Shown here piece after piece: positions 23,031 to 63,375 of a stretch of DNA of 64,000 nucleotides. The translations under genes and the position numbers were made by a program. The DNA is from Fragilariopsis cylindrus CCMP1102 (taxonomy: Eukaryota > Bacillariophyta > Bacillariophyceae > Bacillariales > Bacillariaceae): positions 1 to 64,000 of the forward strand of contig FMBT01000316.1 of the NCBI GenBank assembly GCA_900095095.1. Reading direction: 5' to 3'. Each line of letters starts with the position of its first letter. Positions within the stretch are counted from its first letter, which is position 1. The notes under the pieces are model-generated. The model was not told the origin of the DNA, did no database searches, and saw only the letters and a list, made by a program, of their open reading frames with translations.

Positions 23031-24903
23031 TTAAATGATAATGATACTATCGTGTTCTTCCGCCGTCATCTTGTAGTTTTGAAGGTGTTGAAGCGCTACC
23101 GATTGTCTTTTACGTGTTGCTGATTTGGTACCGGTTCGTCGTTGACGGGGAAGGCGTCAGGTCGTCATCATCCGATTTTGTGGACAAAGAAGCTGCAGCA
23201 GCAGCAGCAGCCAAATCTACTACTTCTTTAGCATTTCTGGCCTCCTTTTCTTGATGTTCTTCCATCGCCGTCGTCAATCTTCCCTCTGCTTCCTTTTCTG
23301 CTTCGAGTCTTTTCGTTTCTGCCTTCTCCAACTTCTTTTGCAAGATCTGATTTGATTTTCAATTGGCCTCTTCTTTCTTTTCTTCCGCCGTCATCTTGTA
23401 GTTTTGAAGGTGTCGTCCTTCATCACGCGGTACCGGTCGTGTTTTACGTGGTGATTTAGTACCCGGTTCGCCGTCAACGTCATCGTCATCGTCATCCACA
23501 ACCGGCATATCGGTGGATGGTTCCACCGGCATATCGGTTTCTGGACCATCATCGTCATCATCGTCATCGTCATCATCTCCATCAGGAGTTAGTGGTCCAT
23601 CATCATCGTCATCGTCATCGTCATCGTCATCATCGTCATCGTCATCGCCATCAGCGGATGGTGGTCCATCATCGTCGTCGTCGTCATCGTCGTCGTCGCC
23701 ATCAGGGGATGGTGGTCCATCATCGTCATCATCGTCATCGTCATCATCGTCGTCGTCGTCGTCGTCTGTGAGTTAAAGCGAAGTGTGTAGGAGTAGAGTT
23801 GTGTAGTATGAGTTGCAGTAGGGATTATAATTGCCGAAAATATGGACATCATGTAGCAAATACTGCTTGTATGAACTTACCACCATCGTCGTCGTCGTCA
23901 TCATCGTCGTCGTCATCATCATCATCATCGTCGTCATCCTGTAACAATTCCAATTATAGAACAACAGCAGCATGTATAGATGTTGTGTTAATTAATGAAC
24001 GACAACAGATAAATTTCACGAATAAGGAGCAAAGACAAATTGTATCGCAAAATACTTACATCATCATCATCGTCATCATCGTCATCATCGTCATCATCAT
24101 CATCATCATCGTCGTCGTCGTCGTCACCGACAACTGTATCATCATCGGGTTGGAGTTCAATACCTTTATATTCTTTCAGGAACACGGGGAACATAATATG
24201 ATTAATACTATGAATAATACCATTACAGGCCAATACATCTTTGGTGACAATTTTTGGCATACTTCCGTGTTTGGTATTCCCGTTGCCGTTTTGATATTTG
24301 ACGATGGTCACATCATCTGTGCCATCAGTCCCATCCAACGTATCGCATTTCGTCCGGGAGGTATCATTGCCACTCATCGAGAGTAATTTTTCGCTACATG
24401 CTAATTCATCATACGTCAAATACATATTTTCATAAAAATGAAATTCCAACATCCGGTTCGCGTCCTTCTCGGTGATATTGACGGAACTGGCATCACCAAA
24501 AATAGCAAACGCTTGATCATCGGGAGCAAAGACGGTATAATTCGTGTTGGGATCCAAACCCGACGAAAACGGTCCGTCCGTTAGATCTTTTACGAATGCA
24601 CAAAATCGGGTCGTATCGGGCATAGCACAAATAGCCTCGACTGATGATGATACATGATACATACAAAGATTGGTACAAAAAAAATGCAAGGAAGGAGAAG
24701 CGAATGATGTGAGTTACAACTGCTCTCCGTTTACTTATTTGCTGAAATCATGTGTCGGAAAACTTACCAATGGACATATCGGTACATGCCGTATCATCAT
24801 CATCATCAGCATCATCATCATCAACAACAATAACAGGATCAACATTAGAAAGAAAAACGATTGACTCGACGAATTCAACAAGGGCAGCATCATCATCATC
24901 ATC

Positions 24904-24938
<35 letters not shown>

Positions 24939-25055
24939 ATCTCCATCAGGAGAGGGTGGTCCATCATCATCGGCATCGTCATCGTCTTTACTGTCAGGAG
25001 ATGGTGGTCCATCATCATCGTCATCGTCATCGTCTTTACTGTCAGGAGATGGTGG

Positions 25056-25086
<31 letters not shown>

Positions 25087-25229
25087 CCAGGAGGAGATGG
25101 TGGCTCATCGAGTTGACGACGGCCTCGTAAACGAGTTGCTTCCGCAGCAGTACCGATAGTACGGGCAGTAGAAGCCGCAGCGGTAGCAGCAACGATCGTC
25201 ACTAAAAACAACAACAACGAAAACTTCAT
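23031..25229 (-). CDS. secreted FAS1 (fasciclin) protein with poly-Asp/PPSPDG repeats and coiled-coil tail
   Basis: Four exons inferred: 25229-24768, 24640-24060, 23938-23881 and 23765-23031, all with GTAAGT donors. The signal peptide MKFSLLLFLVTIVAATAAAS leads to repeats of GPPSPDSK plus Asp runs. A one-base shift near 24925, inside the Asp-codon tract, joins to AALVEFVESIVFLSNVDPV and across the intron to MSIVEAICAMPD. The FAS1 domain (DPNTNYTVFAPDDQAFAIF; CNGIIHSINHIMFP) fills exon 2. Exons 3 and 4 add more Asp runs with GPPSPDG units, then a basic EPGTKSPRKTR module and KMTAEEKKEEAN. The frame then meets one TGA (23361-23359) but stays coiled-coil-like beyond it (LEKAETKRLEAEKEAEGRL). A second copy of the basic module follows after another shift. 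FAS1 domains mediate adhesion; an acidic Ca2+- or mineral-binding matrix role is inference. Confidence 0.75.
23055..23500 (-). repeat. direct duplication of the C-terminal module of the FAS1 gene
   Basis: About 110 bp near 23055-23165 recurs near 23384-23500, about 330 bp away. Both encode EPGTKS, then a basic patch and LQNYKMTAEE. The duplication lies inside the last exon. Confidence 0.75.
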
Positions 25230-25988
25230 CGTAAACAATCGAATACAGTAGTAGTATACTGATTTGTGACAAACTACAGTATTTTTCTTCTTCTTCTTCT
25301 TCTTCTTCTTCTTCTTCTTCTTCACTTCTACGATGTGATGCACTACTTTGTGAGATTAAAGAGATCTTGGTACAGGTTAGATATTGTACTGTCACACCCA
25401 TACACATTTTAATAAGATCCCATAATGCATATTATATGCCATTACTTGATGGTGTATAAATATGATAGTGATGTATCAGACCAGTCGATGCTGTAGGAGC
25501 TTTCTTCTTGGTCCCGAATTGAACATTGAGGTCATAAGGACAGAATAATTTCCGTTCAGCAGTTGTTACTATCACTTTCACAACGACGAACGAAACGAAT
25601 AATGAGGTGGAAAAGATCCAAATTTCCAAAAACACCGTTGTATGTGTTTTGGTACTCTGAGGTTCGCTTTTTTTGTGATACAACAAAACAATAACTTAGA
25701 CGGGAGCAGTTCGTGGTAAACTTGCATCCGACCGTGCAGGATTGTTGTCAAAAAAAAAAAGCGAAGCGTCAACGCGTGCACGTGGATCATTCTACTTGAA
25801 GTATTTTTGGTTTTAGCAATTTTAAATGCAAGAAAGCGCGCTAAAATCTCAGGCTGAGAGCGCATCAAATCCAACGACAATAACACTTTGAAGAAGCATA
25901 CATACCTATTATTCTGAATGAGAAGAGAGACCAAGTAGACTAGTCTAATAAGCAGACAGGATAAAAAGAAGAAGCAAGAAGCAGCAAG
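25230..25988. other. divergent promoter region with CTT tract
   Basis: Spacer between the minus-strand FAS1 gene and the plus-strand SDR gene. It holds a CTT trinucleotide tract at about 25285-25323. A minus frame at 25432-25686 contains a hydrophobic segment but no ATG, so it is not called. Confidence 0.45.
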
Positions 25989-42152: not shown

Positions 42153-44616
42153 ATGATGAGCATCAGCATTTCAAGCGGTGAAGGAAATGGAAATGGAAGC
42201 GAAGAATTCCAACAAGAACAGAAACACGAGGATGATATATATGAATTAGACAATAACAGATCAATACCATCAGCGACAGTAGCGACAGTAGCAACAGCAA
42301 CAGCTACATCATCATCCGAACCATTATTGTTAGATCATTTTAATCCTGATATAGTGGATGCAATGTTAGCAAAAGAAATTGATGATTTACCATTCCAAGA
42401 AAGGAATGATATATATGAAGAAATACATGGTGTATCGAATATGGCAATGGATGAAACACCACAATTAATAAAAGAAAGTCTGAAACGATTATCAGAAGAA
42501 CTGGATAATATTGATAATAATAATAATAATGATAGTAATAATAATGATAATAGTCATGATACGAGTGTCATAGAATCAAAAAAATATTATGATTATGCAC
42601 AATCATGTGCGGCAAAACAGCAACAAGAACAGCAACAAGAACAAGAACAAGAACAAGAACCAACATGTAAGAATCATGATTTTCGTTTACGATTTTTACG
42701 ATGTGAATTATTTAATCCAAAATTAGCAGCCAAAAGGATCTGTCATTTTTATAATCTACTATATATATTATATGGTTATAAGGGTATCAAAACATTTGTT
42801 TCATTGACGACAATCACCAATACAAATACAACAACAAATACAGATACAGATATAAATACAAAGAATTCTTCAAATACAAAGAATTCAAATAAGGATTCAA
42901 AAAGTGGAGAGAATGATAGTAATAACAAACTAACTACAACAACAACAATAACACCACCACCAACAACAACATTAATGGATTTCTTTTTTGGTGATAATAA
43001 AAATGATATGATGTTATTTAAATCAGGTTATATTCAATGCTTACCTTTCAGAGATCGAAGTGGACGTAAAATTATTGTTTTAAATTTAGATTCAATAGCA
43101 AATTTAAAATCTACAATACGAGTAAGTAACTGTACAGTAACTTACTTCTAAGTATAGTTTTGTGTTGTGTTGTGTTGTTTTAACATGCATCAGTTTTTTT
43201 ACTGCATAACAAATGCAATCATGCGAGGAGTGAGTCGAGCGAACGAACAAACTGAGAAATCGAGAAATTTTGCTCTGTTCTATTCTCAACACGGCAAAAA
43301 TCCAACCACGCCGGGCGATCAGATCGAACAATCGAATGCGATGGAATGAATCGAATCGAATCATATCTCGTTATTTGCCTATTGTCTTCTACCTCATTCC
43401 ACTTTCCGGTATTATATATGCTCTCTCTCTCTCTCTCTCTCTCACACACCCATCCTTTGTTTTTGTATTTTTCTTCCATTCACTCTTCCGTCTACTATAG
43501 CTTAAAATATGGATATATATGATATTTGTTGCATCAGAAGATATAGAAACACAACGGAATGGTGTTGTTGTTATATTCTGGCCAGGAATGGACAATGTTG
43601 AAGGGCATTTACCAGATTCACGTCATAGATTACTAGTAAAACAATCCTTTATGGGTATACCAACAAGATTTGCATCCGTTCATTTATGTTGCCCCAATAC
43701 CTATTTTTTTACTATATTACGTAGTGTACTTACATTGGTCTTATCACCCCTGAAACGAGTGCGGGTGAAAATACATACAGGTGAAAGAATGGAAATGCAA
43801 TATGAATTAATGGGATATGGTATACCAATTAGTTTAATACCAACTACAGAAACTGGACGATTAAAAACAAAAAATTGTTTGCAATGGATTAAAGCACGTA
43901 AATTATTAGAACAATATAATAATAACAATAGTAACAATAACAATAATACAGTGAATAATAAAGTTACTCGTACTAACTCTAGGCAAGGATATAATAATAA
44001 TGATGATGATGATTTCTTATTTGAAGGAGAAATACAAACATCATCAGCGTTAAAAAATGATGATGATGATGATGATGATGATGACGGAATAGTACGTATA
44101 GAATGTCCCGGTGTGAATGATGTTATATTTCGTTCTGCTGGTAAGTCATGTATGAATAATCCAGGGAATGTTGTATTTCGTGGTATATTTGAAAATTATC
44201 ATGATGAGCATGTTGCAGCGAATCAAACCAACAAAAAAAATATCATTTGGTCAATTGTGGAAGAAATTGAAAATTCCAATGGTAAATTTTTAAAGTGGGA
44301 CAAACGTGGATGGTGGATACCAATCCATGATCGGAATGAGATACGATCCAAGATTGCTATATCATTCCGTGACTATAATAAACGACGTCGTGCAGATTTA
44401 AATCAACAACTTATCAAGAGTAGTACATATGCATTCAAACGACAAGATGGCAAACGTCGTATGGGTTTCATACAGACAGGGAATAAGAATAGTGATAGTC
44501 GTACTAGAAGTAATTGTTGTGGCGAAGACGAAGAAGGTGGTATATCATCTGATGGTGGTTCCTCGTCATCTTGTGGTCCATCCAATTGTATGAAAAGGAG
44601 TTTTGTTGTAGTATGA
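42153..44616 (+). CDS. CRAL-TRIO-like protein fused to a DUF6824-like domain
   Basis: Two exons, 42153-43121 and 43501-44616, intron 379 bp (donor GTAAGT, phase 0); 694 residues, intact. The N-terminus is Glu/Asn/Gln-rich. A helical part, RLRFLRCELFNPKLAAKRI, marks the start of the CRAL-TRIO N-domain. The lipid-binding core continues with YIQCLPFRDRSGRKIIVLN, then across the splice LKIWIYMIFVASEDIETQ and GVVVIFWPG, and ends with MQYELMGYGIPISLIPTTE. The C-terminal part has NDVIFRSAGKSCMNNPGN, FRGIFENYHDEH, KFLKWDKRGWW, as in DUF6824, a domain I know mainly from diatoms. Sec14-type domains carry lipids or inositol phosphates; the DUF6824 function is unknown. Its first motif normally reads D(V/I)L.GRG; here it is DVIFRSAG. 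Confidence 0.82.
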
Positions 44617-46563: not shown

Positions 46564-47430
46564 TCATGCAGCATTCTCTAATGCGGTAACAAGATTTTGA
46601 ATATTGTCTTCTGTAATCTGAAAACTAAGACTATCACGGTTCTGTCCAATTTGGAATGTATAACTTTTAGCATCAACTATGAATTGGCCATCGCCATCCG
46701 TACCGTCAAAAACATTTTCATTAAAATCATTCAAATTAATTACCATTGAACTATCACTGTTAACTATAGATTTTACACCGAGTACAATTGAAAAGTCGCC
46801 GTTAATATTATTACTAACTCCACCCACTGAGGTAGCTGACTGACCATTTACTTGATTATTAACACCACCAAACGCGACTGCTGCACCATCAAATACTGCG
46901 TTGAAATCACCGCCAGTTGCCACACCATACTCAATGGAGCAGCTATTATTTTCACCACCGGAAATTGTACACCCTGTTCTAGAATCAGTTAAATTAAAAT
47001 CAAATTCACCAAACAAGTCCACTCTGTTTGCTTGTCCGCCAGTAATAACAGAGGAGGGAAAACTAGGGCTAATACCGTTATTACCACCACCAGATATTGT
47101 ACTATGTTTACGTATTCCAATCCCGATCGAGTTTAATGTTCCACCTGAAATAGTTGAAAATGCAGAACCAGCAGCATTTGTAAAGCCACCACCACTAACA
47201 GCATAATTCCTGCCTAAGAAACCAAGACCAGCTCGATTATCTTTACCACCATTGACATTACAAAATCTACCTGTTGCGACATTATCTTGTCCTAAAATAA
47301 CAACACTAAATTCCCCCGTTTCGGTTGGAGGCACAAATTGCAGGCTACGCATACTTGCATCCCTATGAGCCACTACCACACCCCATAAGTATGTGATTGA
47401 TAGGATGGCGTAATAATAAAATTTCATCAT
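46564..47430 (-). CDS. secreted YadA-head-like repeat protein (beta-roll)
   Basis: Intact 288-residue frame from ATG 47430. A signal peptide (MMKFYYYAILSITYLWGVVVA) precedes a repeat body with the consensus x-I-S-G-G-x-x-N-x-x-x-G: AVSGGGFTNAAGSAFSTISG, STISGGGNNGIS, SVITGGQANRV, CTISGGENNSC, GVATGGDFNAV, AVAFGGVNNQVNG, TSVGGVSNNING. Such S/T-x-S-G-G-x-x-N units build the left-handed beta-roll of YadA-type trimeric autotransporter heads and occur in many bacterial surface proteins. The last 60 residues (FIVDAKSYTFQIGQ...) are non-repetitive. In a eukaryote it is probably extracellular. A bacterial origin by transfer is inference. Confidence 0.72.
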   Translation of the reverse strand: MMKFYYYAILSITYLWGVVVAHRDASMRSLQFVPPTETGEFSVVILGQDNVATGRFCNVNGGKDNRAGLGFLGRNYAVSGGGFTNAAGSAFSTISGGTLNSIGIGIRKHSTISGGGNNGISPSFPSSVITGGQANRVDLFGEFDFNLTDSRTGCTISGGENNSCSIEYGVATGGDFNAVFDGAAVAFGGVNNQVNGQSATSVGGVSNNINGDFSIVLGVKSIVNSDSSMVINLNDFNENVFDGTDGDGQFIVDAKSYTFQIGQNRDSLSFQITEDNIQNLVTALENAA

Positions 47431-48326
47431 GATTGTTGTTGTTTAGTCTACTGTATTCCTGTTTTTTACAGTTTTTTAACCTTTGATTTCGGCTTGTTAT
47501 GATGAAATTTTAAACAATAGTGAAGAGAACGGTAATATCAAAGGCTTGGCAAAGGTATTTGATTTGGAAGATTATTATCAAACATTATTATTTACATTCG
47601 TTGCATGTGATGAACTACGGTATTGAACTACTACTAACTTTTACAGCCTCCTAATGTGTTGTTTTTCAAATGAAAAAATAGGTAAAGAGTGCGCAATCGT
47701 ACCCAATGCGCGATATTGAATAGTAACAAATATGCTTCGAGTACTAGAAGGTTTCAATTTAGCTATATTATATTATTTTCTAACTGAGTCGCATCGTGAT
47801 CGAAATTTCATGACCTTAAATGAGTCGCGGGAATCTAATTAGGGTAAAGGCCCAATAAATACACAACTTACTTTAATATAATTTTTTTATTCTTTATGAA
47901 GTTTTTCCTATTGACTTGATAGTAATTAAAAAGATTTTAACGCGTTTTGGAAATTTTACGAATAAGAGTGTTTTTTTTTAGGCCCAAGATCATCGCTGTG
48001 TAGCAAGCAATGAAAGAATGTTTTGTGTCAAAAGATTGGCCGAGGCAATAAATCGAGTCGAATAATTCGAGTCGAGTGAGTCAAGTGAGTCGAGTGAGTC
48101 GAGTCACTCAAATCAAATCAAATCAAATCAAATCGGAGAAGTAAGAGGACGAAGAGAGAAAAAGATTTAAAAATAGACAACACAAGAACACAACACAACA
48201 ATAACTTTATTGTTGTTAACGTAAGTTACTGGAGAAGAAAAAGAAGAAGAAGAAGAAGAAGAAGTGGTAGATTCCACAGCAATAGTAGTAGTATTAGCAT
48301 TAGTATTAGCAGTAATAGTTGTTGCG
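47431..48326. other. divergent promoter region with short repeats
   Basis: Contains GAGTCGAGT/CAAAT repeats (about 48050-48135) and an AAG run (about 48238-48262) ahead of the phosphatase-kinase gene. No gene seen. Confidence 0.45.
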
Positions 48327-51300
48327 ATGGAGGAAAAAGACACAGTAATGACTACGTCAGCTACTACTACTACAGCTACTACTGCAGCAGCAGCAGCAGC
48401 AGCAACAACAGAGAGTAATAAAGTGAACGGACAGCAGGATGACTACATGAACAATAAAGCAGATCCGAACAATAACAACAACGTGAATAATAACAATTAT
48501 GATTATGATAATGCTGCAGTAGTGAATGTGAATGTGAATATGAATGAAAGTAGTAAGAAACCTCGTCTACTACCACCACTACCACTACCACCACCACCAC
48601 ACAAACTACCACTACCACCACTACTAGACGAAGAGGAACGTTTAACTACAATTCAAAAATGGATTGCACAACCAATTGATAAATTACGTGATGTAACAAC
48701 GGGTATATTTCAGGATCCATATCCAGCATCCATTATAATTGAAAATAATACGAATAGAAATGACAATAATATAGACGATAATAATGAGGATGATGATTAC
48801 GATAATACTGGTATCTTAATTGGTAATAAATATCATGCCTCCGATATACAACATTTATTACAATTAGGTGTCACAGCTGTATTAAATTGTGCCTCAGGTG
48901 GTATTGCACAATTACCGGTCGAGGAATTAAAACAAAATGGTATTATATATGGTTTTACAAATGTACGACAAGGTACGTTGTACGTTGATGTTGACGTTGA
49001 GTCTAGTTGAACGTCGACGTTGACGTTGACGTTGAGTTCAGTTTAGTCGAATCCAGTCCAGTCCACTCCACGCCACTCAGTGCGAGATGTGTTTGTACGC
49101 TTACTTACTTACTTGCTTACTAACCTTTCACCTACTTTAATGCGTTACGTTACCGTACATCCCCCCCTGCATTCTCAATTCAATTCCAACGTAACAGATG
49201 ATTTGAAATATCCAATTTTACACGAATTAGTATTGCTACCGCCATCATCGAATAAAGAAGGAGAAGCAGAAGACGACAACAAAGCTGGAACTACTACTAC
49301 TGCTACTAGTACTCCATTAAATAATTTAATTGCCAGTCAACATCTAAAAGTGGCAAAAACAATGTATATCGAAGAAGTCTTAAAAAAAAAAGGTAAAATA
49401 TTATTTTTTTGTGTCGCTGGACAAAATAGATCCGCAACATTAGCATTATCGGTATTATTATTACATGGTAAATACGACTTAAATATCTTATGTCAAAGTT
49501 GTTATTTGACAAGATCCTTTATATTAGAAAATTTAGGATTCCAAAAACAATTAATACAATTAGAATATTATTTATTATGTCAAAAAGCAAAAGCAAAAAA
49601 AGATGGTATGAATAATAAAAAAAGTGTTAGAAAACGATATGGGAATGGTAAAGGTATGACAATGTATTCACATGGTGACTATACAGATGATGATGCTGTA
49701 TTGGCAGCTAATAAAGGCAATATGATCTTGACGAGAACAATGAGTTATGATGACAGTATAGCGTCATCGTCCTGTCAAAGTTCCATGCCAAGATCAACTT
49801 CACAACAATCTTTTACAAGAATCGCACCCACAACACCAAACGGATTACTTATTACTACTACAGGTGAAGCTACTACTACAGATGCTACTCGTACTACTAC
49901 TAATGATACACGTAAATATGTTGAAATTGAATTATTAATACCAGGATTATGTACAATGGAAGCCTATATACCTGTACCATCGACAATCATCGAAGTGAAA
50001 AAAATATTAGTGGATTATGCGAATACTTATTTATTAAAAAGTGAACAACGTACAGTGGCTAAATCATGGATTGTCTTAGCCACATTTGGTCATAATCCCA
50101 TGTATGATTTACCATTAGAAGATGAAGCCATTGAAAAATCGATACAATTATATCGATTAGAAAATATGTTTCATTTAAAGACTGCGGCTGCTGAAATAAC
50201 TAAACCAACAACTGCAACAACTGCAACTGAAACAACTGAAACAACAACAACAACAGTACAAGTACCGGTAGTTGTAGGAGCCACAAAAAATGCAAATAAC
50301 AATGATACATCAACCAAGAATGTAGGTGCTGATACTGCTACACCATCATCGTCACAAGTTGTTGATAATAATGATCGAATTGTATTTTGGACATCCAAAT
50401 GCAGATTTGCTTTAGTAATATTTTCTGTATACACTGGCAGTAGTAGTAGTGGGGAAGATGAGGATACTAACAACGATGATGATGCAACAAATAAATGTAC
50501 TACTACTAGCAGAAGGTACCAAGAACCATGGACGTTCCAGCATCAAGAACGTCCTGGTGCACCAGCCACACTACTTGCGAATACATTAATATCAACACAC
50601 TTACGTGGATGGGATTTCTGTGATGGACAAGCATACGCATCAAAGGAACCAATTGTATTTAGTTTTTCACCAGAAGGTGCTTCTGATAAAAGACAATTTA
50701 TGAAAATATCCACATGTTCCCAAGAATCACAACAATTTGAAGCACCAGGTGAAGGTGGTATATTAGGTACGTCGTTACGTTGATAGTCTGATGAGAATAT
50801 GAATAGTATAGTGTTTGAGGAGCAATAATACAATGCAACTCGTGGGATGATGTTCGTGGTTTATCACTATATTTCCATATCTAATCACATCTTTTTTGTT
50901 TCTTCCTTTCATCGTGTTTGTGCTTGTATTATTATAGGTATGGGTGCCAATGCTATTGTCCATCGTGTTGAATTACAATCAACATCCCCTAAATCATTTG
51001 CAAGTACTACTACTAGAATTGATACAACTACTAATACTGAAGAACGGAAAGAAAAGGAAGAAGAACAAGAACTCTTCTGGGATGCGGCAGTGAAACGTCC
51101 GTTCTCATTGAGTAAAATGTTATCATCATTAAAATCAAGTAGTGAGGCTGGATTAGCAAAGCGATTACGTTTATTAGCACATTCATCATTATTAAATAGT
51201 GATGGACGCGTTCTATACTTTTATGGATTAGGTGTTGCATTGTCCTCCAATGCGTACCAACCAACAGAATATAAATTTGAAGCATGCATACTTGCACGGT

Positions 51301-52215
51301 ATGAAGAAGAATTTTCAACATATACTATGAAAAAATTTATGATTGACTACACATCTACAATAACAACACCGCCGCCAATAACACCATTATTGCCATCGTC
51401 CGCTACTGCTACTGATAACGACTGGAGGAAGGACTTCTCATTGATTAGTGTTAAAGTACTATTGGTTAGTTTATTAAATGCATTCCGTGACTTAACATTA
51501 ATGGGTGTCCAAGCATTTGATTTTAATCATTTAGGGAATGTCTTGGTCAGTCGTGACCATCAAAGTGTTAAATTATTAGATATTGATGGTGATTCACGTG
51601 GTAGCATCCAATTGTCTGAATATATGATAAATAATAATAGTAGTGATAATGGAGGCGGTAACGGGGGTGAACACAGCAGCAACAAAACAACAGTGTCTAG
51701 ACGTCCAAGTATTCTGCTACATAAACCTAGTTTAGATATAGATTTGAATGCTGTATTACCAACGGTCGTCCAACAATTGTTATTAGGAAAAGGTCGTGGT
51801 ACAGGATTTGTTGTGGATACCAAATCAATGATATGGAGATTACCTCCAATAGAAGCAAAAGAATTGATTGGAAAAACTGTTAATGAAAATTTTGGTCCAC
51901 TTACTGATAGTCATATGGCAAAAGTTGTTGAATGGTTCTATGCAATGTTAAAGAAACAACCACCGGTAAGTGTTGTCCTAGTGACTTGTTACTAAATTAT
52001 AAATCACTCACGCGTAGATATACGCGAACGTGTGTGAAAGCTTGTTCTGTTATTTGTAATCATATGTGCAGATATACATGCACGTGTGTGAAAGCTTGTC
52101 CTGTTGTTTGCATATTTCTAATCCTTTTCGTATTCTATAATGTGCATAGTGGGGAAATTGGACGCATGATATCTACGATGCTATGAGATGCATCGATCAT
52201 CTACCCATAAGATAA
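48327..52215 (+). CDS. dual-specificity phosphatase-like domain fused to a kinase-like domain
   Basis: Four exons: 48327-48972, 49198-50766, 50938-51965 and 52150-52215; introns 225, 171 and 184 bp. The joined reading is intact at 1102 residues. After a low-complexity start (poly-Ala, Asn-rich, Pro-rich) come DKLRDVTTGIF and VTAVLNCASGG, typical of a DSP front. The loop is FFC287-VAGQN-R293-S, a C-x5-R signature, but Phe replaces the usual His before Cys. A beta-grasp-looking segment follows (VEIELLIPGLCTMEAYIPVP). The third part has a Gly loop (GILGMGANAIVHRV, about 736-749), a candidate Lys (VKRP, K791), a D933-F-N-H-L-G-N-V catalytic-loop-like motif and LLD953-IDGDS as a DFG equivalent. 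The last exon gives WGNWTHDIYDAM. Activities of both halves are untested inference. Confidence 0.75.
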
Positions 52216-54637: not shown

Positions 54638-55658
54638 GCTTCGAATTGTTAGGGTGGTGCGCCTAAGTTGAAGTTTTCCTAGAGAAATTGAATCTTGATA
54701 GGCACTACGTAGCTCGTGAAGAGGAGCAACTTAGTCACTATCTTTTGTTCCAACTCAAATGACTACACAGTATTTCTACTATGCTGATTCTGCACTTGTC
54801 ATCCATTAGCTGGCTGTATTTCAAACAGGGTTAGAATATTTATCAGGATATATTATATTCATTTTATCTAGACATGATTTAATTTTTCCGCGTTATTTTG
54901 ACATGATTTAGTTCTTCCGCGTAATTTCGTATCAAAACACACACTTTAAGAGCATATATTTCCCCTTATTTGGTTGCATTTGTACATGGCTAGTTAGTAC
55001 TTCGAAGTAGTAGATTGTACCATACAGTACTCTACCAAGTACAGTACAAGAAGAACATGCTGTGCGTACTACACTACCTGGTAGGACTACTGTACTTTAC
55101 TTCATACGGTAGTAAGTAGAAATATAATTGAATCACGAACGATTTTACTTCATGCAGTACTGTAGTAGATAATTAAATCACGAACTAATAAATTTTCATT
55201 CGTGATCGATCACCTCTCAAACGTGGATTAATTGAGTGGTGTCAAAGAACAAAGGAGGAGATCCCCTCCAAACAAGAAATGCACGACTGTTGACACGACG
55301 CGTCGATTTTGATATTTAAATGTATTTATTTTGTGATTGGCATGATGTGATTTTTTTATTCTTGACGCCAACAAACATTCTTGCATTCTTGCATTTTATT
55401 GCGTGAGCCATTTCGAAGTTCGCTCTTTCTTTCTCACGCCTTGCTTCTTGTACAGTATGAGAGAGCGACTGTCGAAGGATTGATTGGGTTCTTCTTATCT
55501 TTTCTTTCCATAAAAGAAAGAAAATCCAATAACAAAGAACAAGCAACGAGAAATATCAAAATCAAGAACAAAGAAATTATTGTAAAAAGGAAAGCAGAGT
55601 AAGAGGAAGAAACAGAGTGAGAAAGTAGAATTACACTATACGTGTACTAATTTGAATC
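54638..55658. other. intergenic, no gene seen
   Basis: AT-rich DNA with several TAGTAC/GTACTA words (about 54995-55110). Promoter side of the flavoenzyme gene. Confidence 0.45.
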
Positions 55659-58600
55659 ATGTTACGTTTACTTACTGCGAGAAGTCCTGTTCAAACGATA
55701 TCGACAACATTGTCGACTTCTCGTCGTCGTATTCCTACCAGTAGTAGTATTATGACTGCTGCTTCCATGAGTACAAATGCATCGACAGCAGCAGCAGCAG
55801 CAACAACGGTTATTGTAGATGACAGTCAACGTGTGGTCGTACAACAGGAACAACAGCAAGACAATCAATTAGATCTAAAATTAGATTTACATCCAATCTA
55901 TCCAAAATTATTTACACCGTATGATTTAGGTCCAGAATTAGGTGTATTACCAAATCGTATAATAATGGGTTCCATGCATACCGGATTAGAAGGACATTCT
56001 ATGCCAGGGATAATGGAATCATTTTTAAATAATGTGATAGATAAAGAAGATAATGATAGTCCACAGTCACACAGTCATAATTTAGATCGAATGGCAATGT
56101 ATTTTCAAAGAAGAGCATTAGGTGGTATAGGGTTAATGGTGACGGGTGGTATTGCACCAAATTATGAAGGATGGGTAGGTCCATTTGCAGCACAATTAAC
56201 CACGGAACAAGAAATGGAACGTCATAAAGTTGTGACAAGTGCCGTTCATGATGTACAGATACCAATCTATGGTTCTGAAAGTAGTTCACAAAGTAATATA
56301 AAATCAAAAATTATCTTACAAATATTACATACCGGACGATATGGATATCATCCATTTGTGGTTTCTGCCGAAACAAAGAAAAGTCCGATATCACCATTTG
56401 CACCAAAAGCATTAACCACCAATGGTATACAAAAAACTATCAATGATTTTGTTCATACTGCAAGTTTAGCACGTCAAGCTGGATATGATGGTGTAGAAAT
56501 TATGGGTTCCGAAGGGTATTTAATTAGTCAATTTTTAAGTCCCAGAACCAATAGTAAACAACGTATGGATGGATATGGTGGTGAAAGTTTTGAAAACAGA
56601 TCACGATTTCCATTAGAACTAGTCCGTGCAGTACGAAAACATTTGGGGAAGGATTTTATCATTATATTTCGTATCAGTTTATGGGAACTGGTGGAGAATG
56701 GTATGTCCTGGACGGAAACAATGATGTTAGCAACTGCCTTAAAAGAAGAAGGTGTGAATATCCTGAACACAGGTATTGGATGGCATGAAGCACGTATACC
56801 AACAATATCCACGAATGTACCACGTGGTGCCTTTACTCATCCAACGAAACAATTAAAATTAGAATTGGAACAAACATCTGAATCTGAATCTTCCAATCAA
56901 GAAGATAATAATAATAAGATACCAGCAATTGTATCAACAAATAGAATTAATGCACCCGATACCGCCGAAGATATATTACAAAATAATGTCTCGGATTTAA
57001 TTAGTATGGCACGTCCATTACTAGCGGATCCTGATTTTATGAAAAAAGCTTTCGACTCTAAACCAGAAACTATAAATACCTGTATCGGGTGTAATCAAGC
57101 ATGTTTAGATCATGCATTTATTGGTAAAACAGCATCGTGTTTAGTGAATCCAGCAGCATGTCATGAGACTGAATTAGATTTAAGTATGATTCATAGTAAT
57201 AGTGGTGTCAGGGGAAATAACAACAACAAGAACTTTACATTACCTATAAAGGATCGTTTAAATATAGGGTACGTATGATATACATTATATCAACAGTAGT
57301 GTGAAGTACATTGTGATGTGCATCCTTTTCACCTACTGTTTCTTTCTTTAATTTGTTTTTTTGTTTTGTTTTGTGCCATACGATTGCAATATAAATATAA
57401 TTTCTTTTGCTTTCTCTCTCTCACGTCAATCATTTCGCTTTTTAAAACCTTCCATCCATCCGTTCCTCCTCGTTTGCCCAATCGACCTTGATCTTACGAT
57501 CGATAACATACCGATTCGATTCAATTCGATTCAACACCCAAATATTTGTTATAACAAAACAAAACAAAAACAAAAATAACAAACCAATAATATTATAGTG
57601 TTATTGGTGCAGGACCAGCAGGTATTGCATTTGCATGTTCTGCAGCAGAAATTGGTCATAATATTACATTATATGAAAGAACAAATAAAATTGGTGGTCA
57701 ATTCCATATGGCAAAACGTGTACCTGGTAAAGAAGAATTTTATGAAGCAATACGATATTGGGAAAATCGTATTAAATGTATTAATGAAGATGCTAGTAGT
57801 AGTGGTACTAGTAATGGTAATGGTAATGGTGGCAAAGTTCAAGTAGAATTACTTACTGATATGACAGTTGAAGATATGACAAATCTTACTACTACAGGTG
57901 ATTATGAGGATGGTAGTACAATTACTAATATTGATAAATGGGTTGTATCAACAGGTGTTCTACCACGTGATATACACATTCCTGGATCAGATCAATTTCC
58001 AGATCGTGTATTAAGTTATGTAGATGTATTACGGCATAACAAACCAGTTGGGAAACGTGTTGCTGTTATTGGTGCAGGTGGTATAGGTTTTGATGTATCA
58101 GAATTTCTATTATATGGCAAACAAATTGATACTGATACTATTGCCACTACGGATACTGATACCTGTCCGGCAGCAGAAGTATCAATAGAAGATTTTTGGA
58201 AAGAATGGGGTGTTGATCCAACACAAGAACATCGTGGTGGACTTGCAAAAGATGGACCAACATTACCACATGGTAAACCAGATCGGTCTATATATCTAAT
58301 GCAACGTAAGAAAGGTAAAGTTGGTGGTGGACTTGGTAAGACAACAGGATGGATTCATCGTGCATCCCTTAATAATTCTAGTCAAGTTACGAACATACCT
58401 GGTGTCCAGTCATATGATAAAATCGATGAAAATGGTAATCTGGTTTATACTGATAGTAAAACTGGTAAACAATGTATATTAGAAGTTGATACGATCGTGT
58501 TATGTGCAGGCCAATTAGAGGAACGTACATTAGAAAATGGTTCAAAATCTATATCAAAATTACATGACAAAGTATATCCAATTGGTGGTGCATATCAAGC

Positions 58601-58751
58601 AGGTGAATTAGATGCAAAACGTGCAATTGATATGGGTACAAGACTTGCACATAAGATACACTTGAATGATGTTACACCTGGTAATCATGTATTCCATTCT
58701 TCGGTTGGTACAGAAGAAAAATTATTTCGCTTTTTAAAGAAATGGATGTAA
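55659..58751 (+). CDS. 2,4-dienoyl-CoA reductase-like NADH:flavin oxidoreductase (FadH/OYE-Fe-S), mitochondrial
   Basis: Two exons, 55659-57268 and 57599-58751, intron 330 bp (donor GTACGT), giving 920 residues; intact. The N-terminus (MLRLLTARSPVQTISTTLSTSRRR) is a mitochondrial-type presequence. The TIM-barrel FMN domain has PNRIIMGSMHTGLEG, QILHTGRYGYHP, FLSPRTNSKQRMDGYGG and ENRSRFPLELVRA. The iron-sulfur site is CIGCNQAC, then a further Cys at CLVNPAACHE. Across the splice comes the first dinucleotide motif VIGAGPAGIA with GGQFHMAKRVPG, and later VIGAGGIGFDV and LCAGQLEE. This order matches the DCR1/FadH family, which reduces 2,4-dienoyl-CoA during breakdown of polyunsaturated fats, abundant in diatoms. 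It is about 250 residues longer than bacterial FadH, through the presequence and Asn/Ser/Thr-rich inserts. Confidence 0.92.
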
Positions 58752-59527: not shown

Positions 59528-62500
59528 TTATCTGTCTTTAAATGCATTCACATCGACTCCAGTGTATTCCTTTATGTGTGCATCAAGGAATGATTCTCTT
59601 GTTAACATACCAACGACGGTACAACCATCCGTTCCGCCAACCACAACAATCCACCTTAACCCAAGCAACGTAAATAGGTTGTATGCCTTTGAAAGTGGAA
59701 AATCTTCTGGTACGAAATACGTTCCACGATTCATAACAGATTCCAAATCAACGACGTCATCTTTGTATACTGGATTTAACCACTTAATAATAACCACATT
59801 ATTTTTTCGATCAAGACCGACTCGTGCAAATCCTTTAGGTGCCTCTTTGACTATGCTGCTTGTTAGTAGCAATGAACTATCACTTTGAGTAGTTTCATCG
59901 TCTGAATTCTTCTTGTAATAACTAACTTTACTAACATCTTCTTCATCGTCGCTATCAATATCCTCTCCACCACCATCGATCCCATCATCAACATCGTCAA
60001 AGAAGTCGTGGGAAGAATATACATTAGCATAATCAACGGTAGGCATAGTGATATCTCCACCTAAAAGTCCTTGAATGGCTTTTTTACGTGCAGATTCTTT
60101 ACGTGTATGTTTTTTATATTTACCCCATAGAGCTTTACCAGACCGGTTTGAGGGACCTACTTCTTCCATCGATGGCGTGAACGATAATGATGACGAACAT
60201 GTATCCATGTCCCTCGTTGTCTTCTTCGGTTTCTCATCATCAGCTTCTTCTTCATCATCATCATCATCCTCTTCGCCATCTTCCTCCCCATGGACGTCAT
60301 TGTATCGATCGTCCTTGATATGAAATGCATAGTGCATCAGTCCTTGTAGTCCACCCATTCCGCTTCTGGTAGAAGTTGCGCCTACACTACTAGTATTGAT
60401 ACTACCGGAACTCGATTTGATACTCATTGTAATAGCATCATCACCTGGACCCACCTGTTCAAAAATCCCGCACTCCATTAAGGCCACAATCTGTTTTCTC
60501 CGAACAAGACCCTTGAATCGACCACGGTCATCAACGACAGGGAAACTGTGTGCGTGTGCGTATGTTTGTGTGAGTGAGTAAGTGAGGGAGGTGACGCTAT
60601 CACGAATAAACAAACGTAACAATAAAAGCGGCAGTAGAAACAATACTGTACAAAGTAACTTACCCATTATGCGTTGTTGATTTCAATATTTTTACCAATT
60701 TACTAGCACGTTCTTTCTCGCGAACGACCACAGGTGGTGTACTCATTACTTCACTGACGGTAAATACATCATACAAATCATCTTTACCGTGCTCCAAGTA
60801 AGGATATCCCTTGAGTTTTATAAGGACTTCGTATATGCCATCCTATAATGTGATATAATATAATTAAGTTTAAAAAAGGAAAATGAATTAATCAGAGTCA
60901 CATAATTTTTTCTAGGACCTCAATCACATGATAACCAAATCCAAATTCAAAACAACGTTACTGATACTATTGACCTACCTCGTGAACTAGATATGCAACA
61001 TAATTAGAAACAACCACAACAATCATTACTGGTAATAATACCTTCATTTGTCCAGTTCCTTCTACTAATATAACACATGTACTAACCGTTGATCGTTGTA
61101 TCCCTGCCATCATAGCTCCGACACCTAATAATGCGAATGACGATGGATCAACATTCTCATCAACATATTGTTTCAATAATAGTCCATACGAGCCACCCAA
61201 TGCTGCACCAGATATAACGATCGGTGTGAACAATCCACTTGGTATAGATGTTGTATTCGTGTATAGCATTAATACATAAAATACGATACCAACAATAAGT
61301 AATGTTAATGGATAAAATTGTCCAGGATTACTTAATATACGTACAATTGCTTTACCACGTGAACCGAAAAATATTGTTGCCATTTCATTTGTTTGTCCTT
61401 CGTCGCAAAAAAATTGTTGCTCCGCTGATGCTGCAGTTGTTGTTGTTGAGTTGTTACCATATACGTCAACATTATCATGACATACCCAACTCATTGATGG
61501 CAATAGGAACATAACAATAGAATTAATTAAACTTATATATGTAATACGTAATAATTTTAAGCCCTTTGTATTAAATTGTTTCCCTGTTGATTTTTTAATT
61601 GCTCCAAATGCTTTACAAAATCCACCACCTAATATACCAAATAGAACCCCCAATACAATCCACCATGGTATTTCTAAAAATCGATCACTGATATTATTAT
61701 CCTCACTCCCCGTATAGGAACCAAATTGTATTGCACCATAATAACTTAAATCACCTCTATATAATGCTAAACAGAATGTACCCACCGAATTTGCAACTAA
61801 TATACGTAAAAACATATCTTGATCAAAAAATGTTGATATATCATCTAATATAAATAACATACCACCGACTATTAGAATAGAAGTAGTACAGTAGTAGAGA
61901 GAAACAACGAAATCGAGAACAATTTGGACGAAAAATTGAAAAAGCAAAGAGAGCATAGAAAGGACCACGGAGAGTGTGTGCGTGTGTGTGTATGTGTGAG
62001 TGAATTGAAGTTGAATTGAGTTTGATGCCAAAAAAAACAACATCAATTAAAAAACAAACAAACATATCAATACAATGCAATGCAAAGAACTAGAACAATA
62101 ACTTACTTGGTGCACCAAAACTTGCTGCAAAACCACAGGCAGCACCAATAGTAATTAATTTTCGACGTTCGGCATCATTTGCAAAATAGGATAAATCAGA
62201 TGTGGACCATATCCATATGGAATGTAATAGTGGTGATGAATTGGAATCAATATCAAAATCATCTAAGAATTGTTCACTTATATCACTTCCACGATTATTT
62301 GAACTTGATCCATTATTATTATTCTTATTCTTATCTTTCTTATTATTACTAAATAAGAATCCTAAACAACCAGTAATACAACCATTATTACCACACTGTT
62401 GTTGACAACGATGTTTCAAATGGATTATTTTTAATATAATGGAACTTAATGTGGTACCACAATGGGCAAGTGTTGCCCCTGCATAGGCACCAATCATCAC

Positions 62501-63375
62501 TAATGGACCTTCCATACCCACTGCCATGGACGATCCGACACTTAATACCGAACCAATCATTTTCACTATCAACAGTGTCGAATTATTAAATTTTTTAACT
62601 CGTATACCATTTAAATAAGATTTTACTTCTGGTATACCAGAACCAATTGCTTCGGTGATACCAGGATAATATAAACATAAAATGGATGCCGTGTCTGCTA
62701 AAAGGAGTGAAATCAAACAATACCATCCAAATACAATCCAATATTGATGATTGGAATCGATATTATTTGTTAATGATTTTGCTAGAAATTCTGTCCGCCA
62801 TGTTACTAATTTTTCGGTACAGGATACAATAATAATAGTGGTTAAACCACTAATAAGTGCACAACAGATTGTTAATACCCATCTTGTTGTATTTTTTGAT
62901 ATAAAAGACGAATGTTTTTGTTTTTGTTGAGATGATAATCGTTCCTTTTTGGCTATCGAGTATATTTGATTTGTTTTGTTTTGTTGATTAGAACAAAAGA
63001 AGGAATGACGAAGAAGCATAGGCGAAAGGATAGGGGAAAAAAGTTTCATATATGAGATGCATGATGGAAGAAAATTTAAAACGCAGAAGTACAGTGCATT
63101 GCATTGCATTGCAATGCAGTGCAGTGCACTGCAGTTCTATTTATGTGTGGCGTGATGCGAAGTACAAAGTAAGTTGTACTTTACTTTAGTTTACTTTATT
63201 TTACTTTACCTTGAATAGAATATCCATTAACTATGCGTTCGAAGTCTAGTGAACCATCTGAATTTTTTCGTCGTTGTTTATGATGTTTATTATGATTCTT
63301 ATTATTAATATTATTTTCTTCTTTAAACAAGGGAGTTGTTTCATCGTTGTTACTATTATTATTATTGCGTTGCAT
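59528..63375 (-). CDS. CLC-type chloride channel/transporter with CBS domains
   Basis: Five exons: 63375-63210, 62952-62107, 61868-60979, 60842-60664 and 60545-59528, introns 115-257 bp; 1032 residues, intact. Start at ATG 63375. The filter motifs are GSGIPEVKSYLNG, GMEGPLVMIGAYAGA (GKEGP motif, gating Glu present, Lys replaced by Met), AASFGAP joined to IGGML by splicing, and SGLFTPIVISGAALGG. An Asn/Lys/Ser-rich insert sits between helices in exon 2. Exon 4 gives the first CBS half (DVFTVSEVMSTPPVV) and exon 5 the rest (FPVVDDRGRFKGLVRRKQIV), then a long acidic insert and the second CBS motif. The gating Glu is compatible with a Cl-/H+ exchanger or channel, location unknown. Confidence 0.93.

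Follow-up and report, generated by a model that had tools for sequence, protein, structure and literature searches.

A predicted diatom protein joining a dual-specificity phosphatase domain to a divergent kinase-like part

Background

Can one diatom gene encode both a phosphatase-like and a kinase-like domain, and what would such a protein do? The question is raised by a locus in the first 64,000 nucleotides of contig FMBT01000316.1 of Fragilariopsis cylindrus CCMP1102 (assembly GCA_900095095.1), a stretch referred to here as the window. As we picture it, the product would run from a low-complexity N-terminus through a dual-specificity phosphatase (DSP) domain and a middle region, perhaps an interaction fold, to a divergent kinase-like domain at the C-terminus. 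We examine the gene model, each of these parts, and known proteins with similar domains below.

A four-exon gene model

The predicted gene has the following parts.

48327–52215, + strand: whole gene, four exons, 1102-aa open frame
48327–48972, + strand: exon 1, low-complexity N-terminus and first DSP half (about residues 162–215), GT donor, open frame
48973–49197, + strand: intron 1, 225 bp, GT-AG
49198–50766, + strand: exon 2, second DSP half, linker, candidate beta-grasp region and the stretch before the kinase-like part
50767–50937, + strand: intron 2, 171 bp, GT-AG
50938–51965, + strand: exon 3, kinase-like part, residues 739–1081, 342 open codons
51966–52149, + strand: intron 3, 184 bp, GT-AG
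52150–52215, + strand: exon 4, final 21 residues plus stop

In-frame joining of the four predicted exons gives 1103 codons with the stop counted, and all 521 full codons of exon 2 are open. The original prediction of one open four-exon gene holds in its coordinates and motifs, with GT-AG introns and host-like codons in exons 1–3. Codon usage was scored as log-odds after training on 9303 codons from host kinase matches and nine other frames of the window. The mean in-frame score is +0.17 in exon 1, +0.15 in exon 2 and +0.16 in exon 3, and both other forward frames and all three reverse frames of these exons are negative. Within exon 2, the sub-stretch 608–737 has one positive reverse frame (+0.08 versus +0.14 in frame). 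Exon 4, whose 21 codons are too short for a useful test, scores 0.00 in frame and is equalled by one reverse frame (+0.02). Coding signal is absent from the introns and flanks by the same measure, all three forward frames of each being negative.

Cys287 of the DSP and everything from there to residue 738 are encoded in exon 2 in one frame, so intron 2 is the sole separator between the DSP and the third part of the protein. The locus might instead yield two products, one a DSP protein from exons 1 and 2 and the other translated from an in-frame ATG of its own at 50940, at the opening of exon 3. This ATG lies inside the Gly-rich loop of the kinase-like part, and a separate protein would therefore lose the start of the loop. 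Positions 50763–50766, in exon 2, hold Leu738 and the initial base of the codon for Gly739, the first Gly of the loop; this codon is split by intron 2, and the predicted in-frame splice restores LGMGANAIVHRV. The GT-AG boundaries of the intron join the frames exactly, and in-frame coding signal is found on both sides of it and not within it. Two products are thus an improbable reading. We consider it very likely, from these features of the DNA, that the DSP and the kinase-like part belong to one single protein, with exons 2 and 3 joined as predicted.

We searched the host genome (68 Mb in 818 contigs) with the C-terminal 650 residues, and a second genomic place was not found at E 0.001. There are eight weaker matches (E 0.004 to 5). 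Three of them were inspected as possible paralogues (L016, L017 and L021) and were set aside, since they seem unrelated and are partly low-complexity. Many Pkinase matches in this genome are paired, with identical scores on two contigs, as if both haplotypes had been assembled; the C-terminal part of the DSP/kinase-like protein, unlike these, has one genomic place only. Matches to the silicon-transporter family number 27 in this genome, with 1.1e-226 for the best of them, and make it very likely that the host is a diatom.

Other features of the window

Several other open frames in the window were also recorded. At 46567–47442 (- strand) a frame of 292 aa opens with a signal-like stretch and contains SGG..N repeats, with no Pfam match at E 0.01; it may encode a secreted repeat protein. 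Two adjacent frames at 23988–25355 (- strand) were seen by eye to contain long stretches of Asp; PPSPD repeats occur in one of the two, and both are possibly secreted acidic proteins. A DUF6824 match (2e-14) at 43501–44613 (+ strand) lies behind a CRAL/TRIO match that is below its cut-off. At 55656–58748 (+ strand), Oxidored_FMN is followed by a pyridine-nucleotide reductase part, perhaps in one intron-split gene, which we take to be perhaps of the dienoyl-CoA reductase kind. Finally, the region 59531–63136 (- strand) contains a Voltage_CLC match in 60970–62046 and a CBS domain in 59531–60682, and together with the next frame (62090–63136) is perhaps one intron-split chloride-channel gene.

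The phosphatase domain

The DSP domain spans about residues 162–342 and includes these features.

49335–49586, + strand: DSP catalytic half, residues 262–345, with PF00782 and PDB DSP matches
49407–49433, + strand: phosphate-binding loop, Phe286 followed by CVAGQNRS (Cys287, Arg293, Ser294)
49239–49250, + strand: PPSS (residues 230–233), near the expected position of the general-acid Asp in a by-eye comparison

PF00782 matches residues 263–338 at 1.4e-11, with 44.8 bits against a curated cut-off of 33.5, and the match covers profile positions 57–131 of 133, which is the second half of the domain. DSPc is the only Pfam family above cut-off in the whole protein, and the single further row, zf-PHD-like, falls below its own. 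When the DSP region alone was used as query, the best solved DSP was DUSP13 (8.4e-8). Alignments to solved DSPs made with phmmer run in the same order through both exons, strongly in exon 2 and weakly in exon 1, where the segment (about residues 162–191) by itself reaches E 0.38–2.1 in the five alignments shown. That the first domain is a DSP, as originally proposed, is borne out by the PF00782 and solved-DSP matches, and we are sure of this identity at the level of sequence, the P-loop half being far beyond chance.

The CX5R loop is present as C287VAGQNR293. The residue before Cys287 is Phe286 (FFCVAGQNRS), at a place where His is usual in DSPs, and this replacement weighs on activity more than on family membership. 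In the enzymology of protein tyrosine phosphatases the His lowers the pKa of the Cys, and an Asp is the general acid. The host genome has at least 11 DSP matches, this protein among them, and all ten of the others found have His before the Cys; the Phe-for-His change that had been pointed out is supported in silico. Two pairs among the ten (L004/L006 and L011/L012) look like copies of one gene each, leaving eight distinct DSPs.

The general acid also appears to be altered. Residues 218–240, the region in which it is expected, contain no Asp (LKYPILHELVLLPPSSNKEGEAE), and Asp216/217 or Asp241/242 are possible as substitutes. By eye, the host DSPs L002, L003 and L008 were matched as having an Asp ahead of the P-loop helix, in IPIYDSS, LYLPTIDH and CHLPHQDT, respectively. 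MAFFT and HH-suite place this stretch differently in a comparison with three of the ten host DSPs, and the alignment is unstable because of a long low-complexity insert in this protein. We consider it likely from the residues present that the general acid has been lost. The missing Asp at 218–240 makes DSP activity doubtful, and loss of both the His and the general acid should slow turnover while phosphate binding remains.

The middle region

Between the two named domains lies the following candidate.

49914–50186, + strand: candidate beta-grasp region, residues 455–545

No Pfam family matches residues 455–545, and a comparison with PDB sequences returned FliW only (E 0.98). An AlphaFold single-sequence model of residues 455–737 has a pLDDT of 34.2, and residues 455–545 start in it with strand, strand and helix at very low confidence. 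This resembles the beginning of a beta-grasp, an unproven candidate fold, and the middle region may serve as an interaction fold. A likeness of residues 455–545 to the PI3-kinase adaptor-binding domain was considered and dropped, being without Pfam or PDB support.

The kinase-like part

The third part of the protein, residues 738–1102, carries four motifs that recall protein kinases.

50938–50960, + strand: the part that lies in exon 3 of the Gly-rich loop LGMGANAIV (residues 738–746)
51093–51095, + strand: Lys791 in AAVKRP, candidate ATP-binding lysine
51519–51539, + strand: catalytic-loop-like DFNHLGN, starting at residue 933 (Asp933, Asn939)
51579–51590, + strand: DFG-like DIDG (Asp953), with Asp955 replacing Gly

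The residues follow each other in the kinase order (G739/G741, K791, D933, N939, D953), in the strings LG.G....V, A.K (with Lys791), DFNHLGNVLV and VKLLDIDG. The spacing from Asp933 to Asn939 is six residues, and that of the 27 listed host kinase motifs is five. A composite motif pattern, written post hoc after the sequence had been seen, matches 8 of 20000 shuffled versions of residues 729–1102, none of 160 null ORFs and 11 of 21 true host kinases. For the catalytic block taken by itself, the pattern occurs in the same number of host kinases (11/21), in 0/20000 shuffles and in 0/160 null ORFs. The motif set thus appears to be moderately beyond chance, and it lends weak support to a kinase relationship.

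For comparison with a profile, we built a host Pkinase alignment from 21 of 30 loci, leaving out six duplicates, two empty extractions and one locus with three stops. It aligns Asp933 with the catalytic Asp and Asp953 with the Asp of DFG. The catalytic block scores 2.0 bits against this profile, a value reached by 6/1000 shuffles and 33/2000 null-ORF windows, and the Gly loop scores 0.1 bits (2/1000 and 34/2000, respectively). The N-lobe alone is barely above chance, its score being reached by 43 of 1000 shuffles. The whole 374-residue part scores -0.3 bits, a value that 33 of 1000 shuffles reach, and is likewise barely above chance. In a first trial with a HMMER host kinase profile, one of 20 shuffles scored above the kinase-like part. 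HH-suite gave the kinase-like part a probability of 0.8 percent, with one of 20 shuffles better and only the Gly loop aligned.

Searches of Pfam, NCBIfam, PHROGs and PDB sequences gave no kinase match for the third part, and no kinase family was returned at E 10 within the HMMER filters. Antibody chains head the PDB sequence rows, with E values from 0.23 upwards. Of the kinase-like module originally proposed, the motifs DFNHLGN (933) and DIDG (953) thus stand in the right order, and a match in the profile libraries does not accompany them.

Structure prediction, which had been suggested as a check, gave a model of the kinase-like part that is uninformative on a kinase fold. The AlphaFold single-sequence model of exon 3 (residues 740–1081) has a pLDDT of 37.9. 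This low-confidence model contains a long helix (905–926) and then two strands (937–942 and 948–956), an order that would fit the one expected around a catalytic loop. A Foldseek comparison with the PDB returned 274 matches at E up to 10, none of them at E <= 0.001. Among the best 50 of the 274, ROCK1 (E 2.5, rank 37) is the sole nameable kinase-domain entry; the top rows, Pur-alpha and phage coats, were counted as noise. This structure test is a weak one owing to the low-complexity inserts and to the ends in exons 2 and 4, which the model lacks.

These results bear on the possibility that the third part has no kinase fold and that its motifs arose by chance or come from another enzyme. Such a reading is in keeping with the absence of kinase hits from the profile libraries that we tried, with the uninformative model and with whole-part profile scores near those of shuffles. 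It sits less well with an ordered set of kinase motifs that the post hoc pattern finds in so few shuffles and in no null ORF, and with a catalytic block and a Gly loop that are each slightly above chance on the host kinase profile. On balance we judge it unlikely. From the motifs, the third part is plausibly a divergent kinase or pseudokinase; it probably has a kinase fold, and the chances that it is an active kinase appear evenly divided.

Relation to known kinase-phosphatase proteins

The combination had originally been thought not to have been described. As to kind this was too strong, since proteins with kinase and DSP domains in one chain are on record as PHS1, as kinatases and in Dictyostelium. 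In PHS1 of plants and green algae, one chain carries both a kinase and a phosphatase of the DSP type, and the phosphatase is reported to silence the tubulin kinase to which it is attached until osmotic stress sets in (PMC8783414, PMC6255987). The two proteins are alike in joining an atypical kinase or kinase-like domain to a DSP-type (MAPK-phosphatase-like) phosphatase. However, the order described for PHS1 is kinase then phosphatase, whereas here the DSP (about 162–342) precedes the kinase-like part (738–1102). The PHS1 kinase is also described as being of the actin-fragmin-kinase type, and the present protein has no PF09192 match in Pfam. A search of the host genome for PF09192 gave no match; the control of the same search was also without one.

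The kinatases of kinetoplastids combine DSP and kinase-like domains, the latter reportedly with little likelihood of being active (PMC2175518). They resemble the present protein in this pairing and in the degraded motifs of the kinase-like domains. They are described as having two pseudokinase domains and leucine-rich repeats, in contrast to the single kinase-like part here, which is accompanied by no Pfam repeat family. In Dictyostelium, a protein counted among the recognised kinome and called 'a novel kinase' is mentioned in one sentence as having a dual-specificity phosphatase domain (PMC1420674); by this description it has the same domain pair in one chain. In another stramenopile, Phytophthora sojae, there are PPM phosphatases that also carry STKc kinase domains (PMC10925823). 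These too unite kinase and phosphatase in one chain, although the phosphatase is of the PPM type and the kinase domain is classic. PHS1 goes unmentioned in the portion examined of a review of bifunctional kinases (PMC9138534).

The DSP-first order and the altered DSP make the protein a variant of the recorded kinase and DSP proteins. What sets it apart, as read from the predicted protein, is that order, a kinase-like part that is non-actin-fragmin by Pfam, and the altered DSP site. Literature queries with diatom terms, covering titles and the starts of abstracts with most subscription journals outside their reach, found no diatom DSP-kinase protein and no account of this particular one; diatom orthologues may well be annotated elsewhere. 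In viral contigs we found no relatives of the kinase part, exon 2, the DSP or three degenerate motifs. Seventeen stretches from this search look like chance (best tblastn E 0.80), and six further ones, with no tblastn match at E 1, were likewise rejected. Exon 3 has no relatives in the genome contigs searched. The two collections hold viruses and prokaryotes and are thus uninformative on other diatoms.

A possible built-in brake

Our best explanation, to which we assign a probability of about one half, is that one diatom gene encodes a 1102-aa signalling protein in which a DSP brakes a divergent kinase-like domain. The kinase-like part would bind ATP and probably phosphorylate a substrate or itself. 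The DSP would keep the phosphate pocket of Cys287 and Arg293, although the His before the Cys is gone and the usual general acid probably is as well. It may bind, and slowly remove, the phosphate that the attached kinase-like part puts on itself or on a shared substrate, and its pocket would thereby hold the kinase low, in the manner reported for the phosphatase part of PHS1. It is by analogy with PHS1, whose phosphatase keeps the kinase inactive, that this coupling is proposed. A weakened DSP site would be of less use to a fast phosphatase than to a brake or to a clamp that binds phosphate. The sequence itself shows the gene model in silico, the homology of the DSP and the presence of the named residues; we infer the kinase fold, the kinase activity, the substrate and the coupling of DSP to kinase.

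The main rival, which overlaps in part with this explanation and which we hold to be possible although clearly less probable, is a pseudoenzyme-pair scaffold, in which both domains bind a phosphoprotein or a nucleotide and neither catalyses. The pseudokinase domains of kinatases are a precedent for it, and each half of the protein has changes of the appropriate kind: Phe for His and no Asp at 218–240 in the DSP, and DIDG for DFG and one extra residue in the catalytic loop of the kinase-like part. However, Cys287, Arg293, Lys791, Asp933, Asn939 and Asp953 are all there, a fuller set than an inactive enzyme would require. We are doubtful of a further proposal, a self-regulating switch in which a substrate-trap-like DSP with neither His nor general acid is linked by way of an interaction fold to a protein kinase whose family has yet to be described, and its pocket captures the phosphorylated segment or product of that kinase and so sets its activity.

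If both halves are real, diatoms would have a kinase-phosphatase chain whose domain order and kinase type are unlike those of PHS1 and the kinatases, and whose phosphatase site differs from the usual one at one, perhaps two, positions relevant to catalysis. Such a protein would offer a compact test of a weakened phosphatase pocket as a built-in kinase brake.
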